Assembly: GCA_035527755.1 (NCBI GenBank) | Contig: DATKZX010000014.1 | Span: 1 to 64,000, forward strand | Direction of reading: 5' to 3' | From: Methanomassiliicoccales archaeon | GTDB lineage: Archaea; Thermoplasmatota; Thermoplasmata; Methanomassiliicoccales; UBA472 | DNA: 64,000 bases | Shown here: piece by piece, positions 4,676-23,063 of the stretch | Layout: the number at the start of each line of letters is the position of its first letter | Position numbering within the stretch: the first letter of the stretch is position 1 | Notes under the pieces: generated by a model | What the model saw: only the letters and a program-made list of their open reading frames with translations | What the model was told of the DNA's origin: nothing | Database searches by the model: none | Position numbers and translations under genes: made by a program

Positions 4676-4692
4676 ATGGATGATATATCCAA
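4676..4692. promoter_or_regulatory. Candidate corrinoid-regulon operator before ABC exporter
   Basis: ATGGAT-GATAT-ATCCAA is a 17-bp inverted repeat with one mismatch from TTGGAT-N5-ATCCAA. It lies 6 nt 5' of the exporter ATPase start (minus strand), between that gene and the end of aconitase. It equals the reverse complement of the core of the btuF-proximal site at 10175-10193 apart from the first base. See the operator series at 7403, 10153, 10175, 19086 and 20243. Confidence 0.55.
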
Positions 4693-7350: not shown

Positions 7351-7402
7351 AGGATTGCAAGGGGACGGGCAAAGAATATTATGGCGATAGAGGGGTTCAC
7401 CG

Positions 7403-7421
7403 ATTGGATGATTAATCCAAT
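7403..7421. promoter_or_regulatory. Candidate corrinoid-regulon operator before cbiP
   Basis: ATTGGAT-GATTA-ATCCAAT is a perfect inverted repeat with 7-bp arms and a 5-bp spacer, the same architecture as the sites before btuF. It lies inside the longest open frame of cbiP (possible ATG at 7381) but before the ATG at 7486, where the conserved protein begins. This supports the later start and places the operator in the promoter/leader. Confidence 0.65.
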
Positions 7422-7485
7422 TGAGCCGGTCCAGAACGATTCTGAGGGCAATTACAATGACCACGTCGGTGTTTTACGCTCACAG

Positions 7486-9255
7486 ATGACCAGGGGGCTC
7501 ATCCGCGGGGATAGGGAGTGCGCCAACTTCCCCTGTCATCACGCCGATCAGAACTGCACCTTCTGTTTCTGTCCACTATATCCCTGTGAGGACCCACTGT
7601 TGGGTACGTTCGTCACATCCCGCCGGACCGGTGGCCGGGTGTGGTCATGCCAGAGCTGTCTTTGGATGCACCGGGACGACGTGGCCGCCTCGCTCTTCGA
7701 GATCATGCCGGAGGTGGGACCCGCAGGTCTGGACCTGGCGACACGAAGGGACCTGAAGGCATCGTTAGATAGGAAGCACCGCCGCCGGGCCAAGGCCATC
7801 ATGGTGCTCGGCGCGACGTCAGGCGCCGGAAAATCGTTGATGGTGACGGCGTTATGTAGGGCGTTCCGCAACCGCGGTCTCACCGTCGCCCCGTTCAAGT
7901 CCCAGAACATGTCCCTGAACTCCATGGTGACCGAGCGCGGGGAAGAGATCGCCCGCATACAGGAACTGCAGGCTCGGGCGGCGGGAACGAGGCCCAGGGG
8001 AGAACTCAACCCCATATTGCTGAAGCCCAAGGGGGGCGTAATCTCTCAGGTAGTGGTCGAAGGCCGCCCCTACCGGGACACCACCGTGCAAGAATACTAT
8101 TCAAAGTTCGTGCCCGATGAAGCGCCAGCCATCATAGCCAGGAACCTGGAGCGCCTGATGCGGTCCAATGATGTGGTGGTCATCGAGGGCGCCGGTTCTC
8201 CGGCGGAGATCAATCTGCGCGGAAGGGACGTAGCGAACATGTACGTGGCCAAGCTGGTCGATGCGACATGTCTGTTGGTGGTCAACATCGATTGGGGCGG
8301 CGCGTTCGCTTACACCGTAGGTACGTTGGCGCTGTTGGACGATGAGGAACGAAGGCTATTTCGAGGCGTTATCATCAACAACATGTGCGGCGGAGGCGGC
8401 ACTATAGGTCCCGCCCTGAAGATCGTGGAGGAGATGACCGGGGTGCCGGTCATCGCGGTCATGCCCCATCTGCCATCGCTCTATCTGCCGGTGGAGGACT
8501 CCATGGACCTGGAGCTGAAGGAGATGAAGGCCGGCGAAACGGTGGTGGCGGTGGTACGTCTGCCCATGATATCCAATTTCACCGACCTCGACGCTTTGAG
8601 CCTCGAAGAAGACGTGCGCGTTGTGTACGTACACCATCCTTCGGAGCTGAACGGGGTGAGCGCCATGATCGTGCCTGGAACCAAGAACTCGGTGCAGGAC
8701 CTTCAGTGGTTGAGAGAGACGGGAATGGCCGAGGCCATCATGGAGAGGGCCGGAAAGATGCCCATCCTGGGCATTTGCGGCGGTTACCAGATGTTGGGAC
8801 GGAGCATCGTGGACGTTCACGGGTTGGAAGGGGGAGCGTCGGCCGAAGTTCCCGGTCTGGGTCTGCTAAACGTCGTGACACATTTCGATTCCTATGATAA
8901 AAGGACGGTGCAGGTGACCGGCTCTCTCGTCCCCGCTCCAGGCGGACCTGTGCGAGGATACGAGATACATATGGGCCGGACGGAAGTGGGCGACGGCCAG
9001 CCGCTGTTCAGCATGGGTCCGGACGGACATGGGGAAGGCCTTTTCGACCCAGAAGGTCTGGTCATGGGCACCTATCTTCACGGCCTGTTCGATCTCCCGG
9101 CCTTTCGCCGCTTCTTCCTATCGCTCACCAGGGGCTCGTCCGATGACAGGGTGATGGACATCGATCACGATGCCGCCGTGGAGATATCGCTGGAAAGGTT
9201 GGCCAAAGAGATCGAGAGGTATCTGGACCTGAACGATCTGCTTGGAGGTGAGTGA
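7486..9255 (+). CDS. cbiP: Adenosylcobyric acid synthase with N-terminal Cys-rich domain
   Basis: The enzyme amidates corrin side chains b, d, e and g of adenosylcobyrinate a,c-diamide, using glutamine and ATP. From the 7486 start, residues 1-60 form a cysteine-rich small domain (C12, C17, C24, C27, C29, C34, C55, C58; pattern PCHH...CTFCFCPLYPC...WSCQSC), likely metal-binding. Residues about 103-325 are the CobQ ATPase domain with P-loop GATSGAGKS (109-117) and SQNMSLNS. Residues about 350-545 are the class I glutaminase, with C431 in GICGGYQ and H532 in TYLHGLF. An in-frame ATG at 7381 would add 35 residues unlike the family and would cover the palindrome, so I prefer 7486. A CobQ-like gene follows after 1 nt. 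Confidence 0.9.
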   Translation: MTRGLIRGDRECANFPCHHADQNCTFCFCPLYPCEDPLLGTFVTSRRTGGRVWSCQSCLWMHRDDVAASLFEIMPEVGPAGLDLATRRDLKASLDRKHRRRAKAIMVLGATSGAGKSLMVTALCRAFRNRGLTVAPFKSQNMSLNSMVTERGEEIARIQELQARAAGTRPRGELNPILLKPKGGVISQVVVEGRPYRDTTVQEYYSKFVPDEAPAIIARNLERLMRSNDVVVIEGAGSPAEINLRGRDVANMYVAKLVDATCLLVVNIDWGGAFAYTVGTLALLDDEERRLFRGVIINNMCGGGGTIGPALKIVEEMTGVPVIAVMPHLPSLYLPVEDSMDLELKEMKAGETVVAVVRLPMISNFTDLDALSLEEDVRVVYVHHPSELNGVSAMIVPGTKNSVQDLQWLRETGMAEAIMERAGKMPILGICGGYQMLGRSIVDVHGLEGGASAEVPGLGLLNVVTHFDSYDKRTVQVTGSLVPAPGGPVRGYEIHMGRTEVGDGQPLFSMGPDGHGEGLFDPEGLVMGTYLHGLFDLPAFRRFFLSLTRGSSDDRVMDIDHDAAVEISLERLAKEIERYLDLNDLLGGE

Positions 9256-10140: not shown

Positions 10141-10193
10141 GTCAATATATACTTGGATGTATTATCCAACTCGAATTGGATATATCATCCAAT
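10141..10193 (+). promoter_or_regulatory. btuF promoter with two tandem candidate operators
   Basis: A TATA box (caatatatac, 10143-10152) is followed by two palindromes: TTGGAT-GTATT-ATCCAA (10153-10169) and ATTGGAT-ATATC-ATCCAAT (10175-10193). Their centres are 23 bp apart, about two helical turns. A transcript start expected near 10170 falls between them, so a bound protein should block initiation. The btuF ATG is at 10216. Confidence 0.7.
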
Positions 10194-10215
10194 TACTACC
10201 ATTGAGAGTGTTCGA

Positions 10216-11442
10216 ATGGATCGTAAAATGATCATAGCTATCTTACTGGCATTGATAATCGTAAGTGCCGGTGTTCTGATCGTACTGAATAATGACAACG
10301 GCGGGGAGACCGCTGGACCGGTGACCGTGTTGGACGCCGAGGGAAGGAACGTGACGACCGCTGAAGCTCCGTTGCGCATAGTTTCCTGTTCGCCATCTCT
10401 AACTGAGATCGTCTATGCCCTGGGCATAGGCGAACGTTTGGTGGCCGTCACTGATTACTGTGACTGGCCCGCTGACGTCGACGTCAGGAAGAACGACGGT
10501 TCTTTGACAAGCATCGGCGGTTACTGGACTCCCAGCATCGAGGCCATCGTAGAGGCGGATGCCAACATCATCCTGGTGGACCAGGGTGTGCAGGCCCAGC
10601 TGGATATGCTGCCTCAGATGGAGGACCTGCAGCTGAACGTCATCGTGCTGAACAAGGGCCAGAGCTTTGCTGAGGTGTATGAGAACATCGCCATGATCGG
10701 TGAGATATGCTGGCAGGACGAGAACGCCACTCAGCTGATCGATTCCATGAACGACCGTTTGGATGAGATCCAGGCGACCATGTCCGAAATCGAGGAGGAA
10801 CCTACCCTGGCCTTCTGTGTCTGGCTGGAACCGATATACCTGAGCGGCAACGGCACCTTCGTTAGCGAAATAATGTACAAGGCCATGGGCGAGAACGCCT
10901 ATGACGACATGACCTCCTATCCCGAGATCGCCATGGAATCCATGCTGGAGCGTGATCCCGAATATCTGTTCGTCACCGGTATGATGATGGAGACCTCGGG
11001 CCAGGCAGTGCTGGACATGTTGAAGAACGACACGCTGTGGTCCGAGACATCAGCGGTACAGAACGATAAGGTGTACGTGCTCGTAGGCCAGGCCGAGAAT
11101 CTCTTCAATCGCCCCGGTCCCCGCATGGTGGACGGCGTGGAACTGATGGCCAAGATACTGCACAGCGATGTCTTCAACGTCACCATACCCTATGTGTTGG
11201 AGAACGATTACGTGGACTGGGTCTCAGGATCGGCCTCTTTCGAAGCTCCAGCCAACGCGATCCTTCTGGTGAACAACGATCTCATCAACGCATTGACCGG
11301 ACCAGCGGCGAACATTTTCGATACTGCCTCCGAGTACGTTGCCCAGGGCGTTATTTTATTACCCCCCCGGCCATACCTGGAACAGTTCGGAATCGAGCCG
11401 CTGTCCTCGGTCATCGGCGATGATCACCTGAAGAACCTGTGA
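10216..11442 (+). CDS. btuF: Corrinoid ABC transporter substrate-binding protein
   Basis: This is a surface-anchored binding protein for cobalamin or cobinamide. A TTG 63 nt upstream would extend the frame across both operator palindromes, so the ATG at 10216 (MDRKMIIAILLA) is the start. The first 25 residues are a single hydrophobic membrane anchor. A TroA/BtuF-type fold follows with SPSLTEIVYALG, VAVTDYCDWPADV, GGYWTPSIEAIVEADANIIL and the late NRPGPRMVDGVELMAKIL. About 75 extra residues follow that last domain helix, ending in PPRPYLEQFG, which is longer than usual. It heads the btuFCD-cob cluster. The substrate assignment rests on the neighbours. Confidence 0.88.
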   Translation: MDRKMIIAILLALIIVSAGVLIVLNNDNGGETAGPVTVLDAEGRNVTTAEAPLRIVSCSPSLTEIVYALGIGERLVAVTDYCDWPADVDVRKNDGSLTSIGGYWTPSIEAIVEADANIILVDQGVQAQLDMLPQMEDLQLNVIVLNKGQSFAEVYENIAMIGEICWQDENATQLIDSMNDRLDEIQATMSEIEEEPTLAFCVWLEPIYLSGNGTFVSEIMYKAMGENAYDDMTSYPEIAMESMLERDPEYLFVTGMMMETSGQAVLDMLKNDTLWSETSAVQNDKVYVLVGQAENLFNRPGPRMVDGVELMAKILHSDVFNVTIPYVLENDYVDWVSGSASFEAPANAILLVNNDLINALTGPAANIFDTASEYVAQGVILLPPRPYLEQFGIEPLSSVIGDDHLKNL

Positions 11443-11452
11443 GGACGAAACC

Positions 11453-12496
11453 ATGGAGGGTACCAAGGCTAGCCGGGCGAAGTTCAAGCTGATCATGATA
11501 CTCGGTCTGGGCTCGGTAAGCCTGGTCCTTCTTTTTTTCTTATCTCTTACTTTGGGCACCATGGACATCTCCTTCCAGGATGCCATGGAGTCCACCTGGA
11601 ACCTCATCGTCAACGGTGGGGAGCACCATAACGTCCAGGAACTGGTAATTCTCAATCTCAGGATACCTAGGGCCTTGGCGGTCATCGCCGTAGGGGTCGG
11701 TCTCTCGGTGGCCGGGGTGGTCATGCAGGCCTTGATACGCAATCCCATGGTCGATCCCTATATCACCGGTGTCTCCTCCGGGGCCGCCCTGGGCGCCACC
11801 CTGGCGGTGTTGGCCGGGGTGACCTTGCTCGAAATATCCAACTATGCCCTGCCCATCATGGCCTTCGTCGGCGCCAGCGCGGCCTTCCTGATAACCATGC
11901 TCCTGGCCGAATCCGCCGGAGGAAGACCCATAAGCTATGTGCTGGGCGGGGTCATCGTGAGCATAGCCTTGTCCGCCGGCACCACCCTGCTGATGTACTT
12001 CAACAGCGACAAGCTGCATGGGGTGCTTTTCTGGCTCTTCGGCTCCTTCGCCTATCTGACCTGGGAATCGACGCTCATCATTCTGTTCACGGTGCTGGCA
12101 TTGACCACGGCCATGCTTTTCTACGCCAAAGAGTTCAACGTCATCCTGTTGGGGGACGAGCAGGCACGGCAGCTGGGCATGAACGTCAAGCGATTCAAGA
12201 CCACGATGTTCATGTTGGTGTCGGCGCTCGCGTCGGTCTGCGTGGCCTTTACCGGTATCATCGGATTCGTGGGATTGATCGTCCCGCACCTGGCGAGGAT
12301 GATCGTCGGCGGTGACCATCGTTTATTATTGCCCGCGTCCATGATGCTCGGGGCAAACATTCTATTGGTGGCAGACATTGTATGTAAGACTGCAGTGGCC
12401 CCGCAGGAGCTTCCTATCGGTGCCATAATCTCGGTCATCGGGGCGCCGTTCTTCGGTTACCTGATGATCAGAATGGGAAAAGAATATGTCATGTGA
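11453..12496 (+). CDS. btuC: Corrinoid ABC transporter permease
   Basis: The 347-residue FecCD/BtuC-family permease has about ten hydrophobic segments. Recognisable family stretches are LNLRIPRALAVIAVGVGLSV, VMQALIRNPMVDPYITGVSSG and, near the end, FIGLIVPHLARM-like GFVGLIVPHLARMIVGGDHR. It forms the membrane channel with BtuD and receives substrate from BtuF. It lies 10 nt after btuF and overlaps btuD by 11 nt, so the three are one transcription unit. Confidence 0.92.
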   Translation: MEGTKASRAKFKLIMILGLGSVSLVLLFFLSLTLGTMDISFQDAMESTWNLIVNGGEHHNVQELVILNLRIPRALAVIAVGVGLSVAGVVMQALIRNPMVDPYITGVSSGAALGATLAVLAGVTLLEISNYALPIMAFVGASAAFLITMLLAESAGGRPISYVLGGVIVSIALSAGTTLLMYFNSDKLHGVLFWLFGSFAYLTWESTLIILFTVLALTTAMLFYAKEFNVILLGDEQARQLGMNVKRFKTTMFMLVSALASVCVAFTGIIGFVGLIVPHLARMIVGGDHRLLLPASMMLGANILLVADIVCKTAVAPQELPIGAIISVIGAPFFGYLMIRMGKEYVM

Positions 12497-13349
12497 GGAT
12501 GAGCTAGTGGTGAAGGTAGACAACATATCCTTCAGCTACGGCACCAAGCGCAATCTTTGCTCCAAGACGTTGAAGGACATAACCATCCATGCTGGAAAGG
12601 GGCAGTTCATAGGTATCATGGGTCCCAATGGCTGCGGGAAGACCACCTTCATGCGCTGCATCAACAAGGTGCTGAAACCACAGGAGGGGGCCATCTACAT
12701 AGACGGAAAGGACGTCGACCGACTGAAGATGATGGAGATCGCCAAGATCTGCGCCAACATCCCGGCGGACGTCCCTGACGATTTTCATCTGTCCGTGGAG
12801 GAGTTCGTGGCGCTGGGGCGTTATCCTTACGTCACCGGCATCTGGTGGGAAGGGGAAAAGGACGAGCTGCTGGTGCGTGAGGCCATGGACTCCTACCATG
12901 TCACCCATCTTCGGGACCGGAAGCTGGGGGAGCTCAGCAGCGGAGAGAAGGCCCGGGTGTTATTGGCGAAGGGGGCGGTCCAACAGCCAAGGATACTGTT
13001 GGCGGACGAACCCAGCGCCCATCTGGACCTTAAGTTCAAGCTTCAGGTCATGCAGGCATTGAAGGACCTGTCCCGTCAAGGCGTCACAGTCATCACCGCC
13101 TCGCACGACATCAATCTCATCACCAAATACTGTGATCTTGTAATAGTCATCAGCGAAGGGTCGATCCTGAGCTACGGACCTCCTGCCGATATCATCAACG
13201 AGGAGATCATACGTTCCGTCTACGGCGTGGAGGTCTCGGTGGTGCGGCAGGGCGAGGACATTTACGTCATTCCATTAAGACCAGTGGATTCGGAGAGAAC
13301 CAAAGATGAGGATCCAAGACCTTGTGAAAAGGGAATTGTTGCCGATTAA
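12486..13349 (+). CDS. btuD: Corrinoid ABC transporter ATPase
   Basis: The 287-residue ATPase of the FepC/BtuD group has Walker A GPNGCGKTT, Q-loop NIPADVPDDFHLSVEEFVALG, signature LSSGEKARVLLAKG, Walker B ILLADEPSAHLD and the switch histidine in TASHDINLI. It drives import through BtuC. The 3' end overlaps the start of cobD by 44 nt in another frame, an unusually long overlap for this cluster, which suggests fixed gene order and coupled translation. Confidence 0.92.
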   Translation: MSCEDELVVKVDNISFSYGTKRNLCSKTLKDITIHAGKGQFIGIMGPNGCGKTTFMRCINKVLKPQEGAIYIDGKDVDRLKMMEIAKICANIPADVPDDFHLSVEEFVALGRYPYVTGIWWEGEKDELLVREAMDSYHVTHLRDRKLGELSSGEKARVLLAKGAVQQPRILLADEPSAHLDLKFKLQVMQALKDLSRQGVTVITASHDINLITKYCDLVIVISEGSILSYGPPADIINEEIIRSVYGVEVSVVRQGEDIYVIPLRPVDSERTKDEDPRPCEKGIVAD

Positions 13350-14451
13350 GCGACCGGTGCACGGTGGCCAAGGTTGGAAGATCTCCGGTGTGGAGGACTT
13401 CAGCCACAACCTCAATCCATACGGACCGCCGGCCGCACTTCCACAGCTGGTCATGGAGGCCGTTGACCAACTGGGCCATTATCCGGACGATACCTCGGCG
13501 CACTTCCGCCAAGCGGTGGCGTCATTGCATCACGTCGACCCGGAGAACGTCATCGCCGGTGCCGGTTCCGCCGAACTGATACGATTGTATCCAGAGGTCT
13601 TCATAGCGCGCAAGGCCCGGGTCATCATCCCCCGGCCGACCTTCTCGGAATACTCGCACGCCTGCCGGATGCAGGGGGCCAACATCATGGACGTTCCGCT
13701 GTGCGAGGGCGAGGGCTTCCGTCTGGACATGAACGCCATTCTCGAGAAGTTGCCGCTGGCAAAAGCGGTCTACGTCTGCAATCCCAACAATCCCACCGGG
13801 ACGGTGGAACCTCGGCGAAGGATGCTGGAACTGATCGAGGAATGCGAACGCGCCGGGAAGCTGTTCTTCCTGGACGAGACATTGCTGGACCTGGTGGAAG
13901 GACACGAGAACATCTCCTGCATGTCCGAGGTAAAGAACCACAGTAACCTTTTCGTAATATCCTCACTGACGAAATCCTTCGCCATCCCGGGCATGAGGGT
14001 CGGCTACGGCGTCGGAAGCCGGGAGATCGTGGACATGATGGACCGGGCCCGCCTTTCCTGGAACCTGGGTGTGATAGAGCAGTATGTCGGCGCCCGCTTG
14101 CTGAAGGAGCATATGGGTCATGTTCAAAGAGCGGCGGAGATGATGGCTAGGGAAAGCGGACGGATCAAGAAGGCGGTCGATGGGACCGGTCTTTTCTCCC
14201 CGCTCTCGGACCAGGCCTTCTTCTTCTTCACCCGGGTGAACAACGTCCGCCTGAACGCGGTGGATGTCATGGAACATCTGCTGCCGCGCAAGGTGTTGGT
14301 ACGGGATTGTTCCACCTTTGGCCGCCCCTTCGACAAGTTCGTCCGTTTCAGCATCAAGACCCCGGAGAAGAACGATATGCTGATCAATGCCATAGAGGAG
14401 ACGGCGCAGGAGATACGCAGCACCGCTTTTGGAGTTAGGATGCATGTTTGA
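13306..14451 (+). CDS. cobD: L-threonine-O-3-phosphate decarboxylase
   Basis: This PLP enzyme makes (R)-1-amino-2-propanol phosphate, the linker of the nucleotide loop. The 381-residue protein belongs to aminotransferase fold type I and is close to HisC. The early RPVHGGQGW and DFSHNLNPYGPP are CobD hallmarks. CNPNNPTG binds cofactor phosphate, FLDETLLDL carries the pyridine-nitrogen aspartate, and SSLTKSFAIPGMRVGYG holds the Schiff-base lysine. The start follows from the short spacing to HGG. The gene sits between the corrinoid importer and cbiB, which uses its product. Confidence 0.9.
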   Translation: MRIQDLVKRELLPIKRPVHGGQGWKISGVEDFSHNLNPYGPPAALPQLVMEAVDQLGHYPDDTSAHFRQAVASLHHVDPENVIAGAGSAELIRLYPEVFIARKARVIIPRPTFSEYSHACRMQGANIMDVPLCEGEGFRLDMNAILEKLPLAKAVYVCNPNNPTGTVEPRRRMLELIEECERAGKLFFLDETLLDLVEGHENISCMSEVKNHSNLFVISSLTKSFAIPGMRVGYGVGSREIVDMMDRARLSWNLGVIEQYVGARLLKEHMGHVQRAAEMMARESGRIKKAVDGTGLFSPLSDQAFFFFTRVNNVRLNAVDVMEHLLPRKVLVRDCSTFGRPFDKFVRFSIKTPEKNDMLINAIEETAQEIRSTAFGVRMHV

Positions 14452-15439
14452 GCTGTTGTTCTACGCGCTCCTTACGCTGACGGTGGCCGTTCTGGTGGAC
14501 CTTTTACTAGGCGAGCCTCCGAACCGTTTGCATCCGGTGGTCTGGATGGGCAAGGTGATATCCTTCCTCGATCGGAGGGTCTCTCGCGGGAGGCCGCGCC
14601 GGGAAAGGGCGGCCGGGGTGGCGCTGGCGATGATCACCATTCTGCTCTTCTCCTTCCTATCGTTGCTTCTGCTCGCTGCGCTGAGGAACTCGCTGGGACC
14701 ACTTGCCTGGGCCATCGTCGGCGGCATATTGCTCAAGACCATGTTCGCCATCAATGCCATGTCCCGGCATACCGAGCCGGTGCGCAAGGCGCTGCTGGAG
14801 GACGATCTGGAACTGGCTAGGGAAAAGGCCGCCATGATGGTCAGTCGGGACGTGAGCCAATTGGACAAGGGGCACGTCATCTCCTGTGCCGCGGAGAGCG
14901 CCGCGGAGAACACCGTGGACAGTATCTTTTCCCCACTGTTCTACTTCGGTCTGCTGGGCCTGCCGGCGGCCGTCGCTTATCGCGCGTCCAACACCCTGGA
15001 CGCCATGGTAGGTTACCTGAACGACCGGTACCGCAATGTGGGATGGTTCTCGGCCAAGCTGGACGACGCTACCAACTGGTTGATGGCCCGCGTTGCCGTA
15101 CCCTTCATACTGCTGGCGTTGGCCTTGTTAGGGAAGGACGGAAAGGCAGGCTGGGCGTCCTCCAAGAAGTATCACGATCAGACCCTTTCTCCCAACAAGG
15201 GGTGGCACATGTCAGCTTTCGCCGGAGGACTGGGCATTCGATTCGAAAAGATAGGATGGTACGTCATGGGCGACGGGCCGCTGCCCTCCGATCCGGAGGT
15301 CTTGCGGGACACCATAAAGATCATGACCCTGGCATCATATCTCTTCCTGTTCGCGGCGGTGATACCCTTATACCTTCTGGTGGGGGTGCACATACAGATC
15401 TACATGGAAGATCTTCTCTGGAACTTCATAGGTGGTTGA
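14444..15439 (+). CDS. cbiB: Adenosylcobinamide-phosphate synthase
   Basis: This membrane enzyme joins adenosylcobyric acid to aminopropanol phosphate. The ATG at 14444 has a ribosome site (ggagttagg) ahead of it and overlaps the cobD stop by 8 nt; a TTG 15 nt earlier is the longer alternative. The protein carries the family marks LLGEPPNRLHPVVWMG, SRDVSQLDKGHVISCAAESAAENTVDSI (whose central part is diagnostic) and ASNTLDAMVGYLNDRY, with about five hydrophobic helices. The next gene, cbiS, begins 5 nt after the stop. Confidence 0.93.
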   Translation: MFELLFYALLTLTVAVLVDLLLGEPPNRLHPVVWMGKVISFLDRRVSRGRPRRERAAGVALAMITILLFSFLSLLLLAALRNSLGPLAWAIVGGILLKTMFAINAMSRHTEPVRKALLEDDLELAREKAAMMVSRDVSQLDKGHVISCAAESAAENTVDSIFSPLFYFGLLGLPAAVAYRASNTLDAMVGYLNDRYRNVGWFSAKLDDATNWLMARVAVPFILLALALLGKDGKAGWASSKKYHDQTLSPNKGWHMSAFAGGLGIRFEKIGWYVMGDGPLPSDPEVLRDTIKIMTLASYLFLFAAVIPLYLLVGVHIQIYMEDLLWNFIGG

Positions 15440-15443
15440 TCAT

Positions 15444-16580
15444 ATGCGTTTGAACGAGATCAAGATCGAGCAGGGCAATGTGAAGGGGCATAATTACGTG
15501 GCGATACGACTGGCCCGCCGCATGAGGATGCTCGGTTCGACTATCCTGAACGGGGGATTGGGCGAGGGCGATTCCGTTCTTATGCTTCAGGTCCCCATGC
15601 ATTATGATCACAAGGACCCGATCGCCCACATGAAGGAGCTGCTGCTGGAGCTCGGCCTTCCACAGGACACCGTCTGTTTCATGACCGCCGCAGACCTGCA
15701 TCGGGCCTTTTCGGTGGAGGAGGTGGCGCACAACGGCACGAACGCCATCGCCATGGTGAGCGCCGGCATCTCCAATGCCATCAACGCCGGGGAATCGTCA
15801 CGGGAGGGGATGGTGCCTCATCGGCAGGTGGGTACGATAAATATCATGGTGATCACGGACAAACCGTTGGACGATTGCGGTCTGGCAAACGCCATAATGA
15901 CCGTGACCGAAGCGAAGACCGCGGCCTTGCGCGATCACAGCGTACCGGGGACCGGGACGACGAGCGACGCGGTGCTCATCGTCTGTCCCGCAGACGGGGA
16001 AAGATGCCTGTGGTCCGGGACCGGTTCCGATCACGGGATCTCCATGGCCATGGCCGTTCGGCGAGGGGTGGGGGCGTCCATATCCAAGTGGAACGGGGGC
16101 AACGGCGATTCCAAGAACTTCCTGCGTTCATTGGCCATCAGAGGGATCACCCTCGACCACATGTGGTCGGCGGTGAAAGGCATGAACGCCCTGGACCCTG
16201 CCTGGGACGAGTCGGCCATCAGGAAGAGGTTCGAGGACAAGCTGGTGGCGTTGGCCAAGGACATCAATGTCAACGCCATGATCCAGGCGGCCATCGCCCT
16301 GGAGGAGAAAGGCCGCTACGGTCAACTGTACGGTCTGGACGTCAAGAAGTTCGAGGAGGACCCGGTGCACCTGCTGGCCGACGAACTGCTGGGCATCGCG
16401 CTCGCCGAATACATCGGTGGCAGCAAATGTGTCTTCGAGTACATTCGTTACGACAAAAAGAAGCCCGGGGTGCTCTCCGAGCTGGGACCGTTCATGGACG
16501 ACATCGTGGCTTCGCTCATCGGCGCTACCATGTCCACAATCTATTCTGATCTACTGGAGGGAGAAGGACGAATATCGTAG
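15444..16580 (+). CDS. cbiS: Fused adenosylcobinamide amidohydrolase / alpha-ribazole phosphatase (CbiS)
   Basis: The protein joins two domains. Residues about 1-205 are CbiZ-type adenosylcobinamide amidohydrolase (MTAADLHRAF, MVSAGISNAINAG, VGTINIMVIT, TEAKTAAL, GTGTTSDAVLIV), which lets the cell salvage incomplete corrinoids by cutting back to cobyric acid. Residues about 265-375 match the PgpA/YutG-like fold used by CobZ alpha-ribazole-phosphate phosphatases (GRYGQLYGLD, FEYIRYDKKKPGVL, FMDDIVASLIGA). This fusion is known as CbiS from Methanopyrus. ATG 15444 follows the site aggtgg; a GTG 12 nt earlier overlaps the cbiB stop. It supplies both the salvage step and the phosphatase step of this cluster. 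Confidence 0.87.
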   Translation: MRLNEIKIEQGNVKGHNYVAIRLARRMRMLGSTILNGGLGEGDSVLMLQVPMHYDHKDPIAHMKELLLELGLPQDTVCFMTAADLHRAFSVEEVAHNGTNAIAMVSAGISNAINAGESSREGMVPHRQVGTINIMVITDKPLDDCGLANAIMTVTEAKTAALRDHSVPGTGTTSDAVLIVCPADGERCLWSGTGSDHGISMAMAVRRGVGASISKWNGGNGDSKNFLRSLAIRGITLDHMWSAVKGMNALDPAWDESAIRKRFEDKLVALAKDINVNAMIQAAIALEEKGRYGQLYGLDVKKFEEDPVHLLADELLGIALAEYIGGSKCVFEYIRYDKKKPGVLSELGPFMDDIVASLIGATMSTIYSDLLEGEGRIS

Positions 16581-16585
16581 GCGCG

Positions 16586-17353
16586 TTGAAGGCGGCACTG
16601 ACCTTATTTACCATATTGCCGGCGAAGAACGATGGCAGGGACGTGGAGGATCTCTCCCGCAACTTCCAGCTGATCCTTTTCGTAGGCCTGTTCTACGGAC
16701 TGCTGGTCGGAGGGATCATGTACCTTTCCGATGGATGGCTCTCCCGGTTGGTGGCGGCGGCCCTGGCCATCGCCGCGCTGCACCTGCTCAACCGCTTCCT
16801 TCATCTGGACGGGCTGAGCGATCTGGGAGACGGCATGGTCTGTGGCGGGGACGCCGAGCGGAAGCTCAGCGCCATGAAGGACTCCAAGACCGGTGCCGGC
16901 GGCGTTGGTTATGTAATGGTCTTCAGCCTTCTCAGCTTCGCCACCCTGGGCTCGCTATGGGGCGTCGGATTGCTGTTCCTCCCGCTTATCGCCGAGATCA
17001 TGAACAAGAACGCCGTGGTGTTCTGCGCCTTCGGCGGAAAGGCCCGCCAGGGACTGGGCAACCTGTTCATTTCCAATACCGGGGAGAAGCAGGCAGTGAT
17101 ATCGCTTCTTCTCTCCCTGCTTCTGAGCATCGGCCTGGTCTTCATCATCGACCTCCTGTTCTTTCAGACCTGGGGCATCGAGAGGATGATCGTTCTGGTG
17201 GTCGCCGCGGCATTCGTGAGCGCTTTGACCGGGCTGGGCATGAGCCGCCTGGCGGAAAAGAACTTCGGAGCGGTGAATGGTGACGTGCTCGGGGCGACGA
17301 ACGAGATCGCCCGGCCGTTGGTGCTCATCGCCATGTTGTTGGTGCTAGCATGA
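16586..17353 (+). CDS. cobS: Adenosylcobinamide-GDP ribazoletransferase (cobalamin synthase)
   Basis: This integral membrane enzyme attaches alpha-ribazole (phosphate) to adenosylcobinamide-GDP. The 255-residue protein shows the CobS pattern LTLFTILPAKN at the start, NRFLHLDGLSDLGDGMVCGG (the catalytic acidic motif) in the middle, and KDSKTGAGGVGYVM, plus about six helices. The start codon is uncertain. TTG at 16586 gives the expected N-terminus, while the nearest ribosome-site-like sequence (ggaggga, about 16556) is rather far upstream. It overlaps cobY as ATGA. Confidence 0.9.
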   Translation: MKAALTLFTILPAKNDGRDVEDLSRNFQLILFVGLFYGLLVGGIMYLSDGWLSRLVAAALAIAALHLLNRFLHLDGLSDLGDGMVCGGDAERKLSAMKDSKTGAGGVGYVMVFSLLSFATLGSLWGVGLLFLPLIAEIMNKNAVVFCAFGGKARQGLGNLFISNTGEKQAVISLLLSLLLSIGLVFIIDLLFFQTWGIERMIVLVVAAAFVSALTGLGMSRLAEKNFGAVNGDVLGATNEIARPLVLIAMLLVLA

Positions 17354-17976
17354 GCGTGGTCGCGCTGATCACCGCCGGTGGTAAGGGGACCCGCATCAGG
17401 GAGCTGGGCATCGAGAAGCCCATGGCCCCCATCCTCGGCGAACCGATGATAGATCGGGTGCTGGAACAGCTCCTGGCGGTGGATGAGATATCCTCCGTCT
17501 ACGTATCGGTCAGCGATAATGTGCCGAAGACCAGGGAGCATCTCATGAGCATAGGGGTCAAGGTGCTGGAGACCTCAGGAACTGAATACTGCCACGATCT
17601 CATCCAAGCGGCCGAAGGCATCACGGAACAGCACATATTCATCTGCCCGGCGGACCTGCCTTTGATAACGGCAGAACTCGTGGGCGAGGTGGTCCGGGAC
17701 TATCTATCGCGCCAGGAGTCATCGTTGACCGTCGGCATCCCCCTGGAAAAAGCGCTGGAGTTCGGCGTGGACGTCACCTTCTATGAAAATGTCGACGGCC
17801 AACCGGTCATACCCTGCGGGGTCAGCGTGGTCAACAAGGCTAGCATGCTGACCCGGGAGTATCTGTCCGGAGGTTACATCCTCGTGGGGACGCCCGATGT
17901 GGTCGTCAACGTCAACACGGTGAAGGACCTGAAGCAGGCGGAGGCCGTTCTGCGCGAACGGCTCACTTCCCCATGA
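17350..17976 (+). CDS. cobY: GTP:adenosylcobinamide-phosphate guanylyltransferase, archaeal type
   Basis: This 208-residue nucleotidyltransferase is the archaeal replacement for bacterial CobU. It activates adenosylcobinamide phosphate with GMP for CobS. The N-terminal ALITAGGKGTRIRELGIEKPM is the nucleotide-binding loop with the conserved lysine, and ICPADLPLIT carries the metal-binding aspartate. It shares ATGA with cobS, and its last 14 nt overlap the convergent cobT. Confidence 0.9.
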   Translation: MSVVALITAGGKGTRIRELGIEKPMAPILGEPMIDRVLEQLLAVDEISSVYVSVSDNVPKTREHLMSIGVKVLETSGTEYCHDLIQAAEGITEQHIFICPADLPLITAELVGEVVRDYLSRQESSLTVGIPLEKALEFGVDVTFYENVDGQPVIPCGVSVVNKASMLTREYLSGGYILVGTPDVVVNVNTVKDLKQAEAVLRERLTSP

Positions 17977-19066
17977 TGGCCATCAGACGGACGTAGTTCG
18001 ACTCGACCGCTTCCAGCATCTCCCGGGCGCCGATCCTTCCCTGGGTCTGGAGGAAGGTGGCCACGGATATTCCGCCCGCGCCCACACCCTCCTTGACCAG
18101 CCCCTTTTCATAGATGCTCAGCCCGTCATGGGCGGAAGCGGAGAAATCCAGATCGGCGGCCAATATCGGTACCTTGCCGATCTGCTCGACTATGCCCCGT
18201 ATGTCCGAAGAACGGTCCTGCACGATCCATTTGGTGGTTCCCAATGCGAGGTTGCTCAACGTTCCGGGGGCCATACCTTTGACGATGGCCATGACCGCGG
18301 CCATCTGCGTACCGCCGGCCATCAGGACAGGGATGGTCTCCGCGGCTCCGGCGACGACACCGGCGGCGGCCGGCATCATGGGGTCGCCCACGGCCTGCAG
18401 CGCTTTCATCGGATCGGTCCTCATATCCTCTTGGCTGAAAGGTGAGTTGGAAACGCCTTCCAAAGCGATATCGGTCTTCACGGAATGAGGATTGTCGATC
18501 ATGCTGCTGGAGACCTTTCCCTTTCCGTCGTAGCCCATGGCCAACAGTGTGGCCAAAGCGGTGGTGGTGCCGCCAGCGATGCTTTCCCCTATCACCAGGT
18601 ATGGATTGTTCTTCGCCAGTTCCCTGCCCAAGAGCACCGAGTTCTCGTATACCCGTCGGGGGTCCTTCAGCGCCCTTCCGGTGCGTATGTCCTCGCCCGG
18701 CGTACCCTCCACATCGAAGAAGGGGGTGTGCGGTCTGACCCGAACACCGCCGTTGATGGCGTACAGAGGCACGGATGCCAGTTGTAAAGCGCTCATGGTG
18801 ATTATGCCTGGAGTGGGTACGCCCGTCGGGGTCACTGGAACACCGTCGATGCATTTGCATCTCCCGTAGAAAAGAAGCTCCACGTCGGCCGCCGGAGTGA
18901 AATCGGTGATCTCGGGGACCGCGCCTGCGGCAGATACGCCAGGGATCTTGGCCGTTTCCGTATTGCCGATCACCACGGCGTAGGTCGGGCGCTTGCCCCA
19001 TAACCTTTCCGTGAACTGTCTCCCTGCCGGTTCCTCCGATGCGTAGATTATGTCCGCTTTGAACAT
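17963..19066 (-). CDS. cobT: Nicotinate-nucleotide--base phosphoribosyltransferase, archaeal CobT (UPF0284)
   Basis: This enzyme makes alpha-ribazole phosphate from the lower-ligand base and nicotinate mononucleotide. The 367-residue protein belongs to the archaeal CobT branch: CIDGVPVTPTGVPTPGIIT, NGGVRVRPHTPF, VIGESIAGGTTTALATL and DLDFSASAHDGLSIYEKG, the last with the terminal catalytic acidic region. It is transcribed against the rest of the cob cluster, from its own promoter with a palindrome (19086-19102). TATA sequence ttaaatatttt on the minus strand (about 19114-19124) puts the start of transcription in that palindrome. Confidence 0.88.
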   Translation of the reverse strand: MFKADIIYASEEPAGRQFTERLWGKRPTYAVVIGNTETAKIPGVSAAGAVPEITDFTPAADVELLFYGRCKCIDGVPVTPTGVPTPGIITMSALQLASVPLYAINGGVRVRPHTPFFDVEGTPGEDIRTGRALKDPRRVYENSVLLGRELAKNNPYLVIGESIAGGTTTALATLLAMGYDGKGKVSSSMIDNPHSVKTDIALEGVSNSPFSQEDMRTDPMKALQAVGDPMMPAAAGVVAGAAETIPVLMAGGTQMAAVMAIVKGMAPGTLSNLALGTTKWIVQDRSSDIRGIVEQIGKVPILAADLDFSASAHDGLSIYEKGLVKEGVGAGGISVATFLQTQGRIGAREMLEAVESNYVRLMAIMGK

Positions 19067-19085: not shown

Positions 19086-19102
19086 TTGGTTGTATCATCC
19101 AA
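19086..19102. promoter_or_regulatory. Candidate corrinoid-regulon operator before cobT
   Basis: TTGGTT-GTATC-ATCCAA has the same 6-5-6 layout as the btuF sites, with one arm mismatch. It lies 20-36 nt before the cobT ATG and is centred about 25 bp from the minus-strand TATA box, directly over the expected transcription start. Confidence 0.65.
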
Positions 19103-19145: not shown

Positions 19146-20195
19146 TCATTCTTCAAGAATGGTCTCCAGCAGCTTTCCGAGAGGGAAATGTTCCCCTCCG
19201 TTCTCGTGGAAGGAGTCACCGCCGCCTCCCACCCACTTGCCACCGTGGACCGCGAAAGGAACCTTCATGCGCATGTGCTCCCCGGTCACCGACGATGCTC
19301 CGTGATCGATCAGCAATGCCACCTGGCATTCGTGGAGACGTTTACCATAACGGCTCAGCTCACGGTCGATCTCCTCGATCAAACGCAGCTTGTTCTTGGG
19401 GTTGCACTTATGGCTGACGTCGTCCGTCTCCTCGATGTGCAGGAAGACGTCTTCTTTTTCGATCATCTGGCTGGCGACCTTGATCCCCTCTTTGAATCCG
19501 GGAACGCGTACCGTTTCCATGCCCAGGAACTTCCCCACGCCCAAAGCGGAAGGGCTCTTGGATATGACCGCCAGGTCCGGAACCTTGGTGATCTCCCGTC
19601 GGACGTCGACGGCGACGCGGCCACGCCCTCCTCCCCAGGGGATCAAGGTGATGCCGCCAGTGCTCTCGCTGACGCCTTGGGCGAACTCCTGGAACGGTCC
19701 CAGCTCATCGGTGGAAAGCATCGCCGGGCCAGGAGGTTTCGGCAGGTCCAGTATGTCCTCCCCCTTCACGGTGAGCACTCCCTTTCCACCTTGGTAGGCC
19801 AGCATCCTGGGTTCCATCTGGGATAGCTTGGACCGGTTCTTGATTATGGCGCGCTGCAGGAACATTTCCTCGTCACAGCTGATATTGTAATACCATTCCA
19901 CATGACCGTCGCGCACCTTGGCCGGGGTCATGCGGTAGGCTACTCGGTCCTCCCCGATGGGAAGCTCCAGGCCGTAGGCTTCGATCACCCCGCGCGGGAT
20001 GTCATACGGCTTTCCGGTAAGCAGCTCGACCAGGAAGGTGTGGGTGTAGTCCTTCCCATCGGTGGTGCCCACCTTGCCCTCGCGGGCCAGCCCGTCCATG
20101 AACTCCTTATGGGCCGCCTCCAGGGGGGTGCGGTTATTGAAGATGGATATGCGCTCGTCGGCTGCGCCGTCCAGTAAAATGATGAGCTTCCTCAT
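19146..20195 (-). CDS. iPGM-like (ApgM-related) phosphohydrolase, altered active site
   Basis: The 349-residue protein belongs to the alkaline phosphatase superfamily and resembles archaeal cofactor-independent phosphoglycerate mutase (ApgM). Retained parts include LIILLDGAADE near the N-terminus, TPLEAA, the metal-site block HIEETDDVSHKC with KLRLIEEID, and LIDHGASSVTGEHMRMKVP. The segment that in ApgM carries the nucleophilic serine (SDxA followed by lsifGYdP) reads YTHTFLVELLTGKPYD instead, so the nucleophile is changed, perhaps to threonine, and the protein is shorter than ApgM. It sits beside cobT, with a weak copy of the corrinoid palindrome upstream. A role in cofactor or phosphate-ester metabolism is likelier than glycolysis. 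Function unknown. Confidence 0.7.
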   Translation of the reverse strand: MRKLIILLDGAADERISIFNNRTPLEAAHKEFMDGLAREGKVGTTDGKDYTHTFLVELLTGKPYDIPRGVIEAYGLELPIGEDRVAYRMTPAKVRDGHVEWYYNISCDEEMFLQRAIIKNRSKLSQMEPRMLAYQGGKGVLTVKGEDILDLPKPPGPAMLSTDELGPFQEFAQGVSESTGGITLIPWGGGRGRVAVDVRREITKVPDLAVISKSPSALGVGKFLGMETVRVPGFKEGIKVASQMIEKEDVFLHIEETDDVSHKCNPKNKLRLIEEIDRELSRYGKRLHECQVALLIDHGASSVTGEHMRMKVPFAVHGGKWVGGGGDSFHENGGEHFPLGKLLETILEE

Positions 20196-20242: not shown

Positions 20243-20259
20243 TTGGTCGTATCGTCCAA
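20243..20259. promoter_or_regulatory. Weak copy of corrinoid-regulon operator
   Basis: TTGGTC-GTATC-GTCCAA is self-complementary in its arms except for the spacer, but differs from the consensus at arm positions 5 and 6. It lies between the iPGM-like gene (minus, 48 nt) and the deoxyinosine glycosylase (plus, 42 nt). AT-rich boxes on both sides (atataatat at 20231-20239; acaaataacgtt read on the minus strand, about 20267-20278) could place either transcript start at or near it. Confidence 0.4.
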
Positions 20260-20300: not shown

Positions 20301-20840
20301 ATGCCGGTCTCAGGAGATGATGCGAGCGAGGGACTAGATCATAGGGTCGGCCTACCGCTCATAATCGGCGACGGTCCGAAGGTCCTCATCCTCGGGACCA
20401 TACCAAGCGTATTGTCCGATAGGAAGCAGGAATATTATGGCAATCCTCAAAATCATTTTTGGAGGATCATCTACCAGGTGTTCGATTCGGAGCTCGATCC
20501 TGTCTATGGGAGGAGGTTGACATACCTCAAGGAAAAGGAGATCGCCCTCTGGGACGTGCTCGGTGAATGCGACATTGATAAGAGCAAGGACCACTCCATA
20601 ATCAATCCGGTGGCCAATGATCTGGCTTCCTTGTTCCGGAGACATACCAGCATCGGCCATGTGTTCCTCAATGGAAAGAAGGCCTATGGGTGCTATGAAA
20701 GATTGGTACAGAAAAAGCTACCGCCGGGTCTCGATGGACCGATCGTCGCAACGCTCCCCTCATCATCGCCAGCGAACGCGGTCAGGATATCCGAAAAGGT
20801 GAATGCCTGGAAGGTCGTTCGGGAAGTCCTTGAAAACTGA
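20301..20840 (+). CDS. DNA-deoxyinosine glycosylase (UDG superfamily, HDG family)
   Basis: The 179-residue protein has the uracil-DNA-glycosylase fold of the hypoxanthine-DNA glycosylase group. KVLILGTIPSVLSDRKQEYY is the catalytic loop, GNPQNHFWRII the second marker, and ATLPSSSPAN the DNA-intercalation loop (usually LPSTSPAN). It should remove deaminated bases in base excision repair. It stands alone, divergent from the iPGM-like gene and convergent with hypF. Confidence 0.85.
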   Translation: MPVSGDDASEGLDHRVGLPLIIGDGPKVLILGTIPSVLSDRKQEYYGNPQNHFWRIIYQVFDSELDPVYGRRLTYLKEKEIALWDVLGECDIDKSKDHSIINPVANDLASLFRRHTSIGHVFLNGKKAYGCYERLVQKKLPPGLDGPIVATLPSSSPANAVRISEKVNAWKVVREVLEN

Positions 20841-20861: not shown

Positions 20862-23063
20862 TCAGTTCCCGGTCCTCGAAAGCGCTACCGCGCATTGTCC
20901 CGTGGAAATGCATCCGTCCCCGTTGGGGGTACGATCGTGGCAGACGAACTCCAGGCCCCGTCTTTCAACGAGCATCTTGCTCCAGCGGGAGATGGGACGA
21001 TTGTAGCTGACGCCACCGCTCAGACCGATGTGCTTTACCCCTTCGTCCTCGGCCGCCTCGACGGCGATGTCCACCAGTCCAGAGAGCATGGCATAGGTCA
21101 TGCTTCCCGCCCTATCGGCGACGGAACCGGACGAATCCATCATGCAGCGGAACATCTCCGGTGTGTCGATGACGTTTCCCTTGCGGACGGTCGGCACCAG
21201 GTCCGACCGCTTCGCCTTCTCCAGCCACTTCTCCAGCTTCATGGCCGGTTCGCCGTCGTAGCTGCGATACTGGCATATGTCGTGATAATATGAGATGGCG
21301 TCCAGGACCCGGCCGAACGAAGTGCTGGTACCGGCCCGGGGCATCATCTTACGGAACAGTTCGGCGTCCTTCTCCGGGAAGTGGTCCAGTCCCCCTCCGG
21401 TAAGCTCGGCCATGGCGAAGGCCAATCTCCGGACGTCATAGACGGCCTTCTCGCCGCCCAACAGCGGTATCTCCCTCAGGTGTCCGATGCGCCGGTAATC
21501 CTTGAGGTCCGAGAAGAGCACTTCCCCTCCCCAGGCCACACCGTCATCGCCGTATCCCGTGCCATCCAGGGTCAGGACCACCATCTCCGGCAGCTGTGAT
21601 TCGACGAGCAGGGCGGCGGCGTGGGCGTGGTGATGCTGAACCTCCACCGCCTCTATCCCAGCCTCCTCGGCCAACCTCTTGGCCAGCCTCCGAGCGGAGT
21701 GTCCGGGATGAAGGTCCATGCCGATGGCGTTCAGTCCCTCCGCTCCCAGCAATCGCCTCAGGTACTTCAAGCCCTCATCCAGGAATTCCAGCACCCCGGG
21801 CGAGGTGGCATCGCCGATGTACTGGGTGGCGTAAAGGCGGCCATCGAAGGCCAAAGCGCCGGCCAGTCCTTCCTGGGCACCCACGCCGATGGCCGTTCCC
21901 TTCAATGGAAGCTCTATGTAACTGGGGATATGTCCTCTGGACTTGCGCAGATAGTAGGTCTTGCTCCCGAATGAACGCACCACCGAATCGTCGCAGCGGT
22001 TGATGATCTCCCGGTCATGCATCAGATACATGTCCGCTCCCAGCATCAATGCGTCCTTCTCCCGCAGCACCATCGGCTCCCCGGGAACGTTGGCCGATGT
22101 CATCACCAAGGCGTCCTCCTTCAGGTAATGGAACAGCAGGTGCTGCATGGAGGTGTAGGGAAGGAATACGCCGATGTTCCCCAGTCCAGGCGATACCAGT
22201 TCCGTGATATCGTTCTCTATCTTGTCCACCAGCACTATCGGCCTATGGCTGGATGTGAGCAGCTCCAGATCATGAGCGGTAGGCCGGGCGTATCGCTTGA
22301 GCGCTTCCAGGTCCCGCACCATTACGGCGAAAGGTTTCTCTTTCCTCCGATACCATTCTCTCAGAGGTCGCAAACGGTCCAGGGAACAGCATAGATGCAT
22401 GCCTCCCCAGCTCTTGGCCACTCCGATCCTTCCCTGTTGTAATCCCCAGGCGAACTTGGCTATGGGGTCCTCGTAGTCCCTGCGCCCTTCCGCGTCCAGA
22501 AGGTAATAGCGGGGACCACAGACCGGGCAGGTGATGGTCTGATGATGGAAGCGTCTGTCATCCGGGTCCTCATATTCCCGCTGGCATTCCGGGCACATGG
22601 GGAACGGTCGCATGGAGGTCTTCTCCCGGTCGTACGGAAGGTCCTCGATGACCGTGAATCGTGCACCACAATCAGTGCAGTTGGTGAACGGATAAAGGTA
22701 ACGCCTGTTCCCCGAACTAAGCATCTCTTCGAGACAGGATGGACAGACCGCCGTGTCGTTGGGGATACCAACTCCCCTCGACCCTTCCTGGCTAGGCACG
22801 ATGACGAAACCCATCTCCTTCAAACGCCGATCGGGCAGCCCTTCAGAGATGACCATGTCATCCAAACGGGCCAGGGGCGGCAGCGCCGCCTTCAATCGAG
22901 AAATGAACTCCTGGGGGTCCCCGTCGATCTCGATGACCACGTTGGAACCGTTGTTCTGCACGTAACCGTGTAAACCCATTGATCTGGCCAGGCGGTGGAC
23001 CGTGGGACGAAAACCGACTCCCTGGACCACTCCTCGCACGGTGACGCGCATACCCCTTTCCAT
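20862..23063 (-). CDS. hypF: Carbamoyltransferase HypF ([NiFe]-hydrogenase maturation)
   Basis: HypF converts carbamoyl phosphate and ATP to carbamoyl-adenylate, then moves the carbamoyl group to HypE for CN ligand synthesis. The order of domains in the 733-residue protein is complete. An acylphosphatase domain comes first (VRGVVQGVGFRPTVHRLA, YVQNNGS). Zinc fingers follow (CPSCLEEM, CTDCGARF, CPECQREY, CPVCGPRYY), then a YrdC-like domain (about 200-370, ending near LRKSRGHIPSYIEL) and a Kae1-like carbamoyltransferase (VEVQHHHAHAAALL, LTLDGTGYGDDGVAWGGE, HIGLSGGVSYNRP). No other hyp or hydrogenase genes are nearby. The start could be this ATG or the ATG 12 nt later (MRVTVRG). Confidence 0.95.
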   Translation of the reverse strand: MERGMRVTVRGVVQGVGFRPTVHRLARSMGLHGYVQNNGSNVVIEIDGDPQEFISRLKAALPPLARLDDMVISEGLPDRRLKEMGFVIVPSQEGSRGVGIPNDTAVCPSCLEEMLSSGNRRYLYPFTNCTDCGARFTVIEDLPYDREKTSMRPFPMCPECQREYEDPDDRRFHHQTITCPVCGPRYYLLDAEGRRDYEDPIAKFAWGLQQGRIGVAKSWGGMHLCCSLDRLRPLREWYRRKEKPFAVMVRDLEALKRYARPTAHDLELLTSSHRPIVLVDKIENDITELVSPGLGNIGVFLPYTSMQHLLFHYLKEDALVMTSANVPGEPMVLREKDALMLGADMYLMHDREIINRCDDSVVRSFGSKTYYLRKSRGHIPSYIELPLKGTAIGVGAQEGLAGALAFDGRLYATQYIGDATSPGVLEFLDEGLKYLRRLLGAEGLNAIGMDLHPGHSARRLAKRLAEEAGIEAVEVQHHHAHAAALLVESQLPEMVVLTLDGTGYGDDGVAWGGEVLFSDLKDYRRIGHLREIPLLGGEKAVYDVRRLAFAMAELTGGGLDHFPEKDAELFRKMMPRAGTSTSFGRVLDAISYYHDICQYRSYDGEPAMKLEKWLEKAKRSDLVPTVRKGNVIDTPEMFRCMMDSSGSVADRAGSMTYAMLSGLVDIAVEAAEDEGVKHIGLSGGVSYNRPISRWSKMLVERRGLEFVCHDRTPNGDGCISTGQCAVALSRTGN

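Follow-up and report, generated by a model that had tools for sequence, protein, structure and literature searches.

The window, a stretch of 64,000 nucleotides on contig C14 of a Methanomassiliicoccales genome (G000), carries on its reverse strand a gene at 19146-20195 that encodes a protein of 349 residues. This protein and its family are designated X. A previous reading, made from the sequence alone, had placed the open reading frame at these positions and had named cobT as its neighbour; both assignments were recovered, the adjoining gene being a cobT of the archaeal type. The genes and operators surrounding X are the following.

7381-9255, forward strand: CobQ-like protein with an N-terminal cysteine-rich PF04071 domain (PF04071 at 7510-7710).
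10153-10192, forward strand: a pair of operator copies ahead of the likely btuF start.
10153-13349, forward strand: probable BtuF-, BtuC- and BtuD-like corrinoid transport genes, named by sequence and synteny.
13306-14451, forward strand: CobD-type L-threonine-phosphate decarboxylase (TIGR01140, 245.5 bits, under the cut-off of 290.55).
14429-15439, forward strand: CbiB (profile searches).
15432-16580, forward strand: CbiS, with CbiZ and CobZ domains (NF038002, 233.8 bits, just missing the cut-off of 250; TIGR03161, 131.8 bits).
16586-17353, forward strand: CobS (TIGR00317, 155.8 bits).
17350-17976, forward strand: CobY-like guanylyltransferase (TIGR00454, 106.5 bits, and NF045495, 92.2 bits, both under cut-off).
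17963-19066, reverse strand: cobT, archaeal-type NaMN-dependent phosphoribosyltransferase (TIGR00303, 381.6 bits), directly downstream of X.
19086-19102, forward strand: 17-bp palindromic operator TTGGTTGTATCATCCAA, upstream of cobT, within the X-cobT gap.
19146-20195, reverse strand: X, ApgM-derived protein of the alkaline phosphatase superfamily, 349 residues, ATG start.
20243-20259, forward strand: 17-bp palindromic operator TTGGTCGTATCGTCCAA, upstream of X.
20301-20840, forward strand: DNA-deoxyinosine glycosylase gene (TIGR04274, 142 bits), between hypF and X in the window genus.
20862-23063, reverse strand: hypF, neighbour of X on the upstream side throughout the order.

In profile searches, X matched TIGR00306 (ApgM) with 126 bits (125.8; E 2e-36), which does not reach the cut-off of 320 bits, and PF01676 (Pfam Metalloenzyme) with 53.2 bits (E 3.8e-14), which passes the curated cut-off of 24.3. 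The match to TIGR02535 (70 bits) stays below its curated cut-off of 446.3. Weaker matches were also obtained with NF003104 (87 bits), NF003242 (85 bits) and PhpG (53 bits), described in NCBIfam as CMP-5'-phosphonoformate--3-phosphoglycerate phosphonoformyl transferase, and neither TIGR03161 nor PF04608 (CobZ) matched X in these searches. ApgM structures ranked first both in the PDB sequence search (2zkt, E 1.4e-12) and with Foldseek (2zkt_B, E 1.6e-22, TM 0.73/0.67). The next-best fold match was phosphopentomutase (e.g. PDB 3m8w), a member of the same superfamily, at the weaker values of E 5e-10 to 3e-7 and 11-14% identity. Profile-profile alignment of X with the canonical ApgM of Methanomassiliicoccales covered 336 columns at 24% identity. 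These comparisons place X among the relatives of archaeal ApgM, as a diverged one, with a homology far beyond chance. It shares with ApgM (TIGR00306; PDB 2zkt, 3kd8 and 3idd) the fold, the metal ligands and the RG..EA and A[YF]R motifs, and differs from it in being about 50 residues shorter, in the replaced Ser nucleophile, in a shortened loop and in the link to cobT.

The active site was analysed in an alignment of 41 diverse members of the family, which share 30-86% identity with the window protein. Six metal-ligand residues (D9, D258, H262, D297, H298 and H307) are invariant in 41/41 proteins and align, respectively, with D10, D301, H305, D341, H342 and H351 of ApgM. They constitute the two-metal ligand set (D, D..H, DH, H) of the alkaline phosphatase / metalloenzyme superfamily, and the metal-site motifs that had been described as kept, namely D9-G10, the DD.SH block (D258 and H262), D297-H298-G299 and H307, are thus conserved throughout the family. 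Other invariant residues include G10, D13, T45, Y50, T51, R68, E72, R88, P186-W187, H253, E256, K269, D277, G299 and S301. The ApgM block GSDT[A/S]H becomes G[K/R]xYT[H/Q] in X. The column of the ApgM Ser, opposite which Lys48 of X aligns, is variable (K, R, Q, C or S across the family), whereas Tyr50 and Thr51 are invariant; the DRRAGR, TEHRA and LLPRGAG motifs of ApgM are absent.

In the AlphaFold models (mean pLDDT of 94.5 for X and 92.8 for ApgM), Thr51 of X opens the helix 51-60 and Ser57 of ApgM opens the helix 57-64, the loop ahead of the catalytic helix being five residues shorter in X. Since Thr51 occupies the same helix-start position as ApgM Ser57, the Thr of the invariant YT pair is likely the nucleophile, an equivalence drawn from the modelled helix starts. 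The sequence-only reading had the serine block replaced by YTHTF, and the ApgM Ser is indeed gone; a loss of the nucleophile, which was also considered, was revised, as the models suggest that it has probably shifted to Thr51. The nucleophile of phosphopentomutase is a Thr (T85 in B. cereus, T85 variants being named in PDB titles). The disappearance of the ApgM Ser in favour of variable residues, together with that of the DRRAGR and LLPRGAG arginines, would also be compatible with a pseudoenzyme of non-catalytic or regulatory function, binding CobT or a phosphorylated intermediate, but such a role is improbable in view of the invariance of the six metal ligands and of Thr51 across the 41 members. 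X is better described as a putative enzyme which would perform a two-metal phosphoryl transfer with Thr51 acting at the start of the catalytic helix.

The genomic neighbourhood was compared in 41 loci spanning the X-bearing families, where the gene order is hypF, X, cobT on a single strand. In 37/41 loci X immediately precedes cobT on that strand, with a gap of 5-243 nt. Two of the exceptions (L086 and L088) have genes between X and cobT, cobQ-like ones in L086, and in the two others (L087 and L089) cobT lies on a different contig from X. In many family f6 loci the hypF and X genes overlap by 1-4 nt; other genes separate the two in family f5 and in the window genus. In one draft genome (G044), HypF and X share one open frame (L096:7557-10910); this 'fusion' apparently reflects a lost TGA stop, with the intergenic stretch read through. 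Conservation of the cobT neighbourhood had been proposed as a check, and homologues lying mainly away from cob genes had been named as the result that would speak against a corrinoid role; on the contrary, X is found beside cobT almost order-wide.

The palindrome TTGGNNGTATCNTCCAA is present in exact form at 19086-19102 and 20243-20259; two copies that each differ at one position, at 10153 and 10176, precede the btuFCD-cobD-cbiB-cbiS-cobS-cobY run. The number of matches with at most one mismatch expected by chance is 0.04, so that the operator, previously noted as shared by X and cobT, is shared as stated but is not the weak one it had been taken for. Two further species of the genus have the copy upstream of X unaltered, and a third has it with one change. 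The copy in the X-cobT gap was retrieved at the same position, with at most two mismatches, in 16/41 loci, and in none of the shuffled controls; copies ahead of X itself are clearest in the window genus. By operator and neighbourhood, X belongs to the cobamide nucleotide-loop regulon. Operator-like palindromes were also noticed at 7404-7420, at the annotated CobQ start, and at 4676-4692, next to the start of an ABC transporter.

A profile search detected X in 120/147 genomes of Methanomassiliicoccales; 124 matches were counted in the order, of which four (G002, G004, G127 and G128) are ApgM and were left out. Among 390 genomes across the phylum, the X profile scored 417-498 bits in Methanomassiliicoccales; elsewhere it did not exceed 49 bits, in frames of ApgM size, and no relative above 50 bits was found outside the order in the genomes sampled. 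Within this sampling, the X family is confined to Methanomassiliicoccales and represents a variant of a known superfamily that is new and specific to the order. In many genera X occurs together with a canonical full-length ApgM, and in the window genus and several others it occurs alone. ApgM above the cut-off was not found in genera g1, g2, g4, g7 and others, nor in G000, where iPGM_N and His_Phos_1 were not found either; the phosphoglycerate mutase step is therefore left without a recognised enzyme in a genome that is 99.7% complete. X, which could easily be mistaken in annotation for a phosphoglycerate mutase, including in genomes where no mutase is recognised, is the only superfamily candidate found in G000 and could in principle be the mutase of the window genus. 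This is nevertheless highly improbable: full-length ApgM coexists with X in many genera, X has neither the Ser nor the substrate-site arginines of ApgM and is tied to cob genes, and one genome (G038) is devoid of both X and ApgM.

The fate of X was followed in the 74 genomes that are at least 90% complete, with counts compiled by hand and Fisher p values that ignore the relatedness of the genomes. X and CbiB were both present in 67 genomes and both absent from 6, X alone never occurring and CbiB alone once, in G038 (p 4e-8). With CobT, the counts were 65 for both, 2 for X only, 1 for CobT only and 6 for neither (p 1e-6), the two cases of X without CobT being X genes at contig ends. With HypF, both were present in 67 genomes, X only in 0, HypF only in 5 and neither in 2 (p 8e-3). 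Family f3, genus g3 and G133 are without X, CobT, CobS, CbiB, CobZ and PF04071, and all of them except G007 still possess HypF. The retention of HypF where X and the cob genes are gone indicates that X tracks the nucleotide loop and not hydrogenase maturation, and a partnership with HypF as the main functional link was set aside for this reason. The cobT neighbourhood, the shared operator and the co-occurrence with CbiB and CobT all link X to the nucleotide loop, and X is very probably a cobamide nucleotide-loop enzyme and not a phosphoglycerate mutase. The proposal of a corrinoid phosphatase or phosphotransferase outside glycolysis is upheld in part, for the pathway. Methanogenesis in Methanomassiliicoccales depends on corrinoid methyltransferases, and X marks an order-specific step of the B12 pathway that has no assigned reaction. 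A link between the B12 metabolism of these organisms and the methane yield of ruminants has been described (PMC10804542).

CobT forms alpha-ribazole phosphate, and the position of X next to cobT could designate X as a nucleotide-loop phosphatase acting on alpha-ribazole phosphate or on adenosylcobamide phosphate (5'-phosphate), i.e. an analogue of CobZ/CobC, and metalloenzymes with a Thr nucleophile can be phosphatases. CbiS had been put forward as the candidate for the alpha-ribazole phosphatase step. The window CbiS does contain a CobZ domain, but this domain was not detected in many X-carrying genomes, those of genera g17-g19, g22, g25, g27, g28 and g30, and four CbiZ proteins checked in or near these genera were without a CobZ/PgpA match. 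The CobZ/CbiS phosphatase, which would then catalyse the same step as X and shares its neighbourhood in the window, has a PgpA-like profile (PF04608) unrelated to X and is present alongside it in G000. This coexistence, found also in families f1, f2, f4 and f5, would make X redundant. Moreover, three genomes of genus g20 (G028-G030) have neither X nor CobZ and yet keep CobT, CobS and CobY, which need a phosphatase. Such a function is accordingly considered unlikely. With TIGR03161, the CobZ domain of CbiS escaped detection in genera g17-g20, g22, g25, g27, g28 and g30, where CobT and CobS remain; CbiZ genes examined include L085:2864-4144, L082:1098-3149 and L086:14149-15111, and the proteins checked match only PF01955. 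The alpha-ribazole phosphatase of these genera is thus unassigned, and in the many f6 genera among them that carry X it may be X that acts as the phosphatase.

The same three genomes, where CobT, CobS and CobY are present and X, CbiB and CobZ are absent, are informative in another respect. No CbiB was found anywhere in them, and neither CobD nor CbiZ within their cob cluster. As X was lost together with CbiB whereas CobT, CobS and CobY were kept, X is grouped with the aminopropanol arm of the pathway, in preference to the base arm and the final phosphatase. An assignment to the aminopropanol-phosphate arm favours in turn a threonine kinase, the step without another candidate there; no other candidate for an L-threonine kinase was seen in the cob cluster of the window. 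A paralogue of ApgM would have left glycolysis to become a dedicated nucleotide-loop enzyme in Methanomassiliicoccales, and X could be making L-threonine O-3-phosphate for CobD, after which CobD and CbiB would join aminopropanol phosphate with the corrin ring. The supply of L-threonine phosphate is our best single guess for X, and a tentative one. More doubtful is the full proposal, according to which X would be a lineage-specific L-threonine kinase whose scaffold is that of phosphoglycerate mutase and whose Thr nucleophile has been re-registered. If this were true, it would add another non-homologous solution for threonine kinase to PduX, BluE and the CobD of Methanosarcina mazei.

Several observations weaken the threonine-phosphate role. 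CobD and CbiB are kept without X in G038 and G039, although these two genomes also lack CobT and HypF, and G027 has CobD and CbiB with no detected X. No kinase is established within this superfamily, BT2402 having failed to complement an E. coli thrB mutant (PMC7311316), and X scores best against ApgM and not against TIGR02535 (126 versus 70 bits). Published precedents, on the other hand, speak for the role. TIGR02535 proteins were proposed to phosphorylate homoserine, and mutants of BT2402 need threonine (PMC7311316). In Dehalobacter restrictus, the TIGR02535-like Dehre_1608 ('cbiU'), encoded in a nucleotide-loop operon, was proposed to be an L-threonine kinase (PMC4285132), and no later test of CbiU function was found in the literature searched. 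TIGR02535 and CbiU are, like X, relatives of phosphoglycerate mutase, both with proposed and unproven functions, and CbiU resembles X in its nucleotide-loop gene context in a cobamide maker (PMC4285132). Together with these proteins, X offers a case in which to test the capacity of phosphoglycerate-mutase-like proteins to phosphorylate the hydroxyls of amino acids.

The threonine kinase step might instead be performed by CobD alone or by the PF04071-CobQ protein. The CobD of Methanosarcina mazei, whose C-terminal cysteine-rich domain is said to resemble PF04071, reportedly has threonine kinase activity; the window CobD (13306-14451) has no C-terminal cysteine-rich extension and no PF04071 match. 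PF04071 was found in 126/147 genomes of the order, fused throughout to a CobQ-like protein. PF04071-CobQ is present across the genomes that make cobamides, for which reason a simple substitution of X by PF04071 in genus g20 was rejected.

The neighbourhood, operator and profile evidence would also fit if X catalysed some other phosphoryl or phosphodiester step, as yet undescribed, in the synthesis or salvage of cobamides, with substrates such as NaMN, alpha-ribotides, aminopropanol phosphate or GDP-cobinamide. The PhpG match suggests in addition that the scaffold may be reused on nucleotide donors. This reading is rather unlikely, the threonine kinase being the only known gap of the pathway that requires filling. 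The functions can be ranked with threonine phosphorylation by X first, followed by another unassigned phosphoryl step and then by a phosphatase.

The genomes with CobD and CbiB and without X were inspected further. In G038 and G039, CobD, CbiB, CbiZ, CobS and CobY are present and HypF, X and CobT were not detected. An assembly gap at the usual site of X in G038 is unlikely, as the usual upstream neighbour is intact and lies within a contig, where hypF does not come next. The loss of HypF from G038 (L144, L138) and G039 (L139) is odd for an order of H2-dependent methanogens. In G027, an 84% complete draft of genus g20, the cob cluster includes CobD and CbiB, and X was not found beside hypF. A broken cobY in G038 was also rejected, the stop being an in-frame TAG. 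In-frame TAG codons occur inside conserved cobT, cobY, hypF and cbiB genes of several genomes of family f6 and in a CbiS of genus g1; the TAG was confirmed in one cobY (L138:6991-7350), and the pattern is consistent with TAG being read as pyrrolysine.
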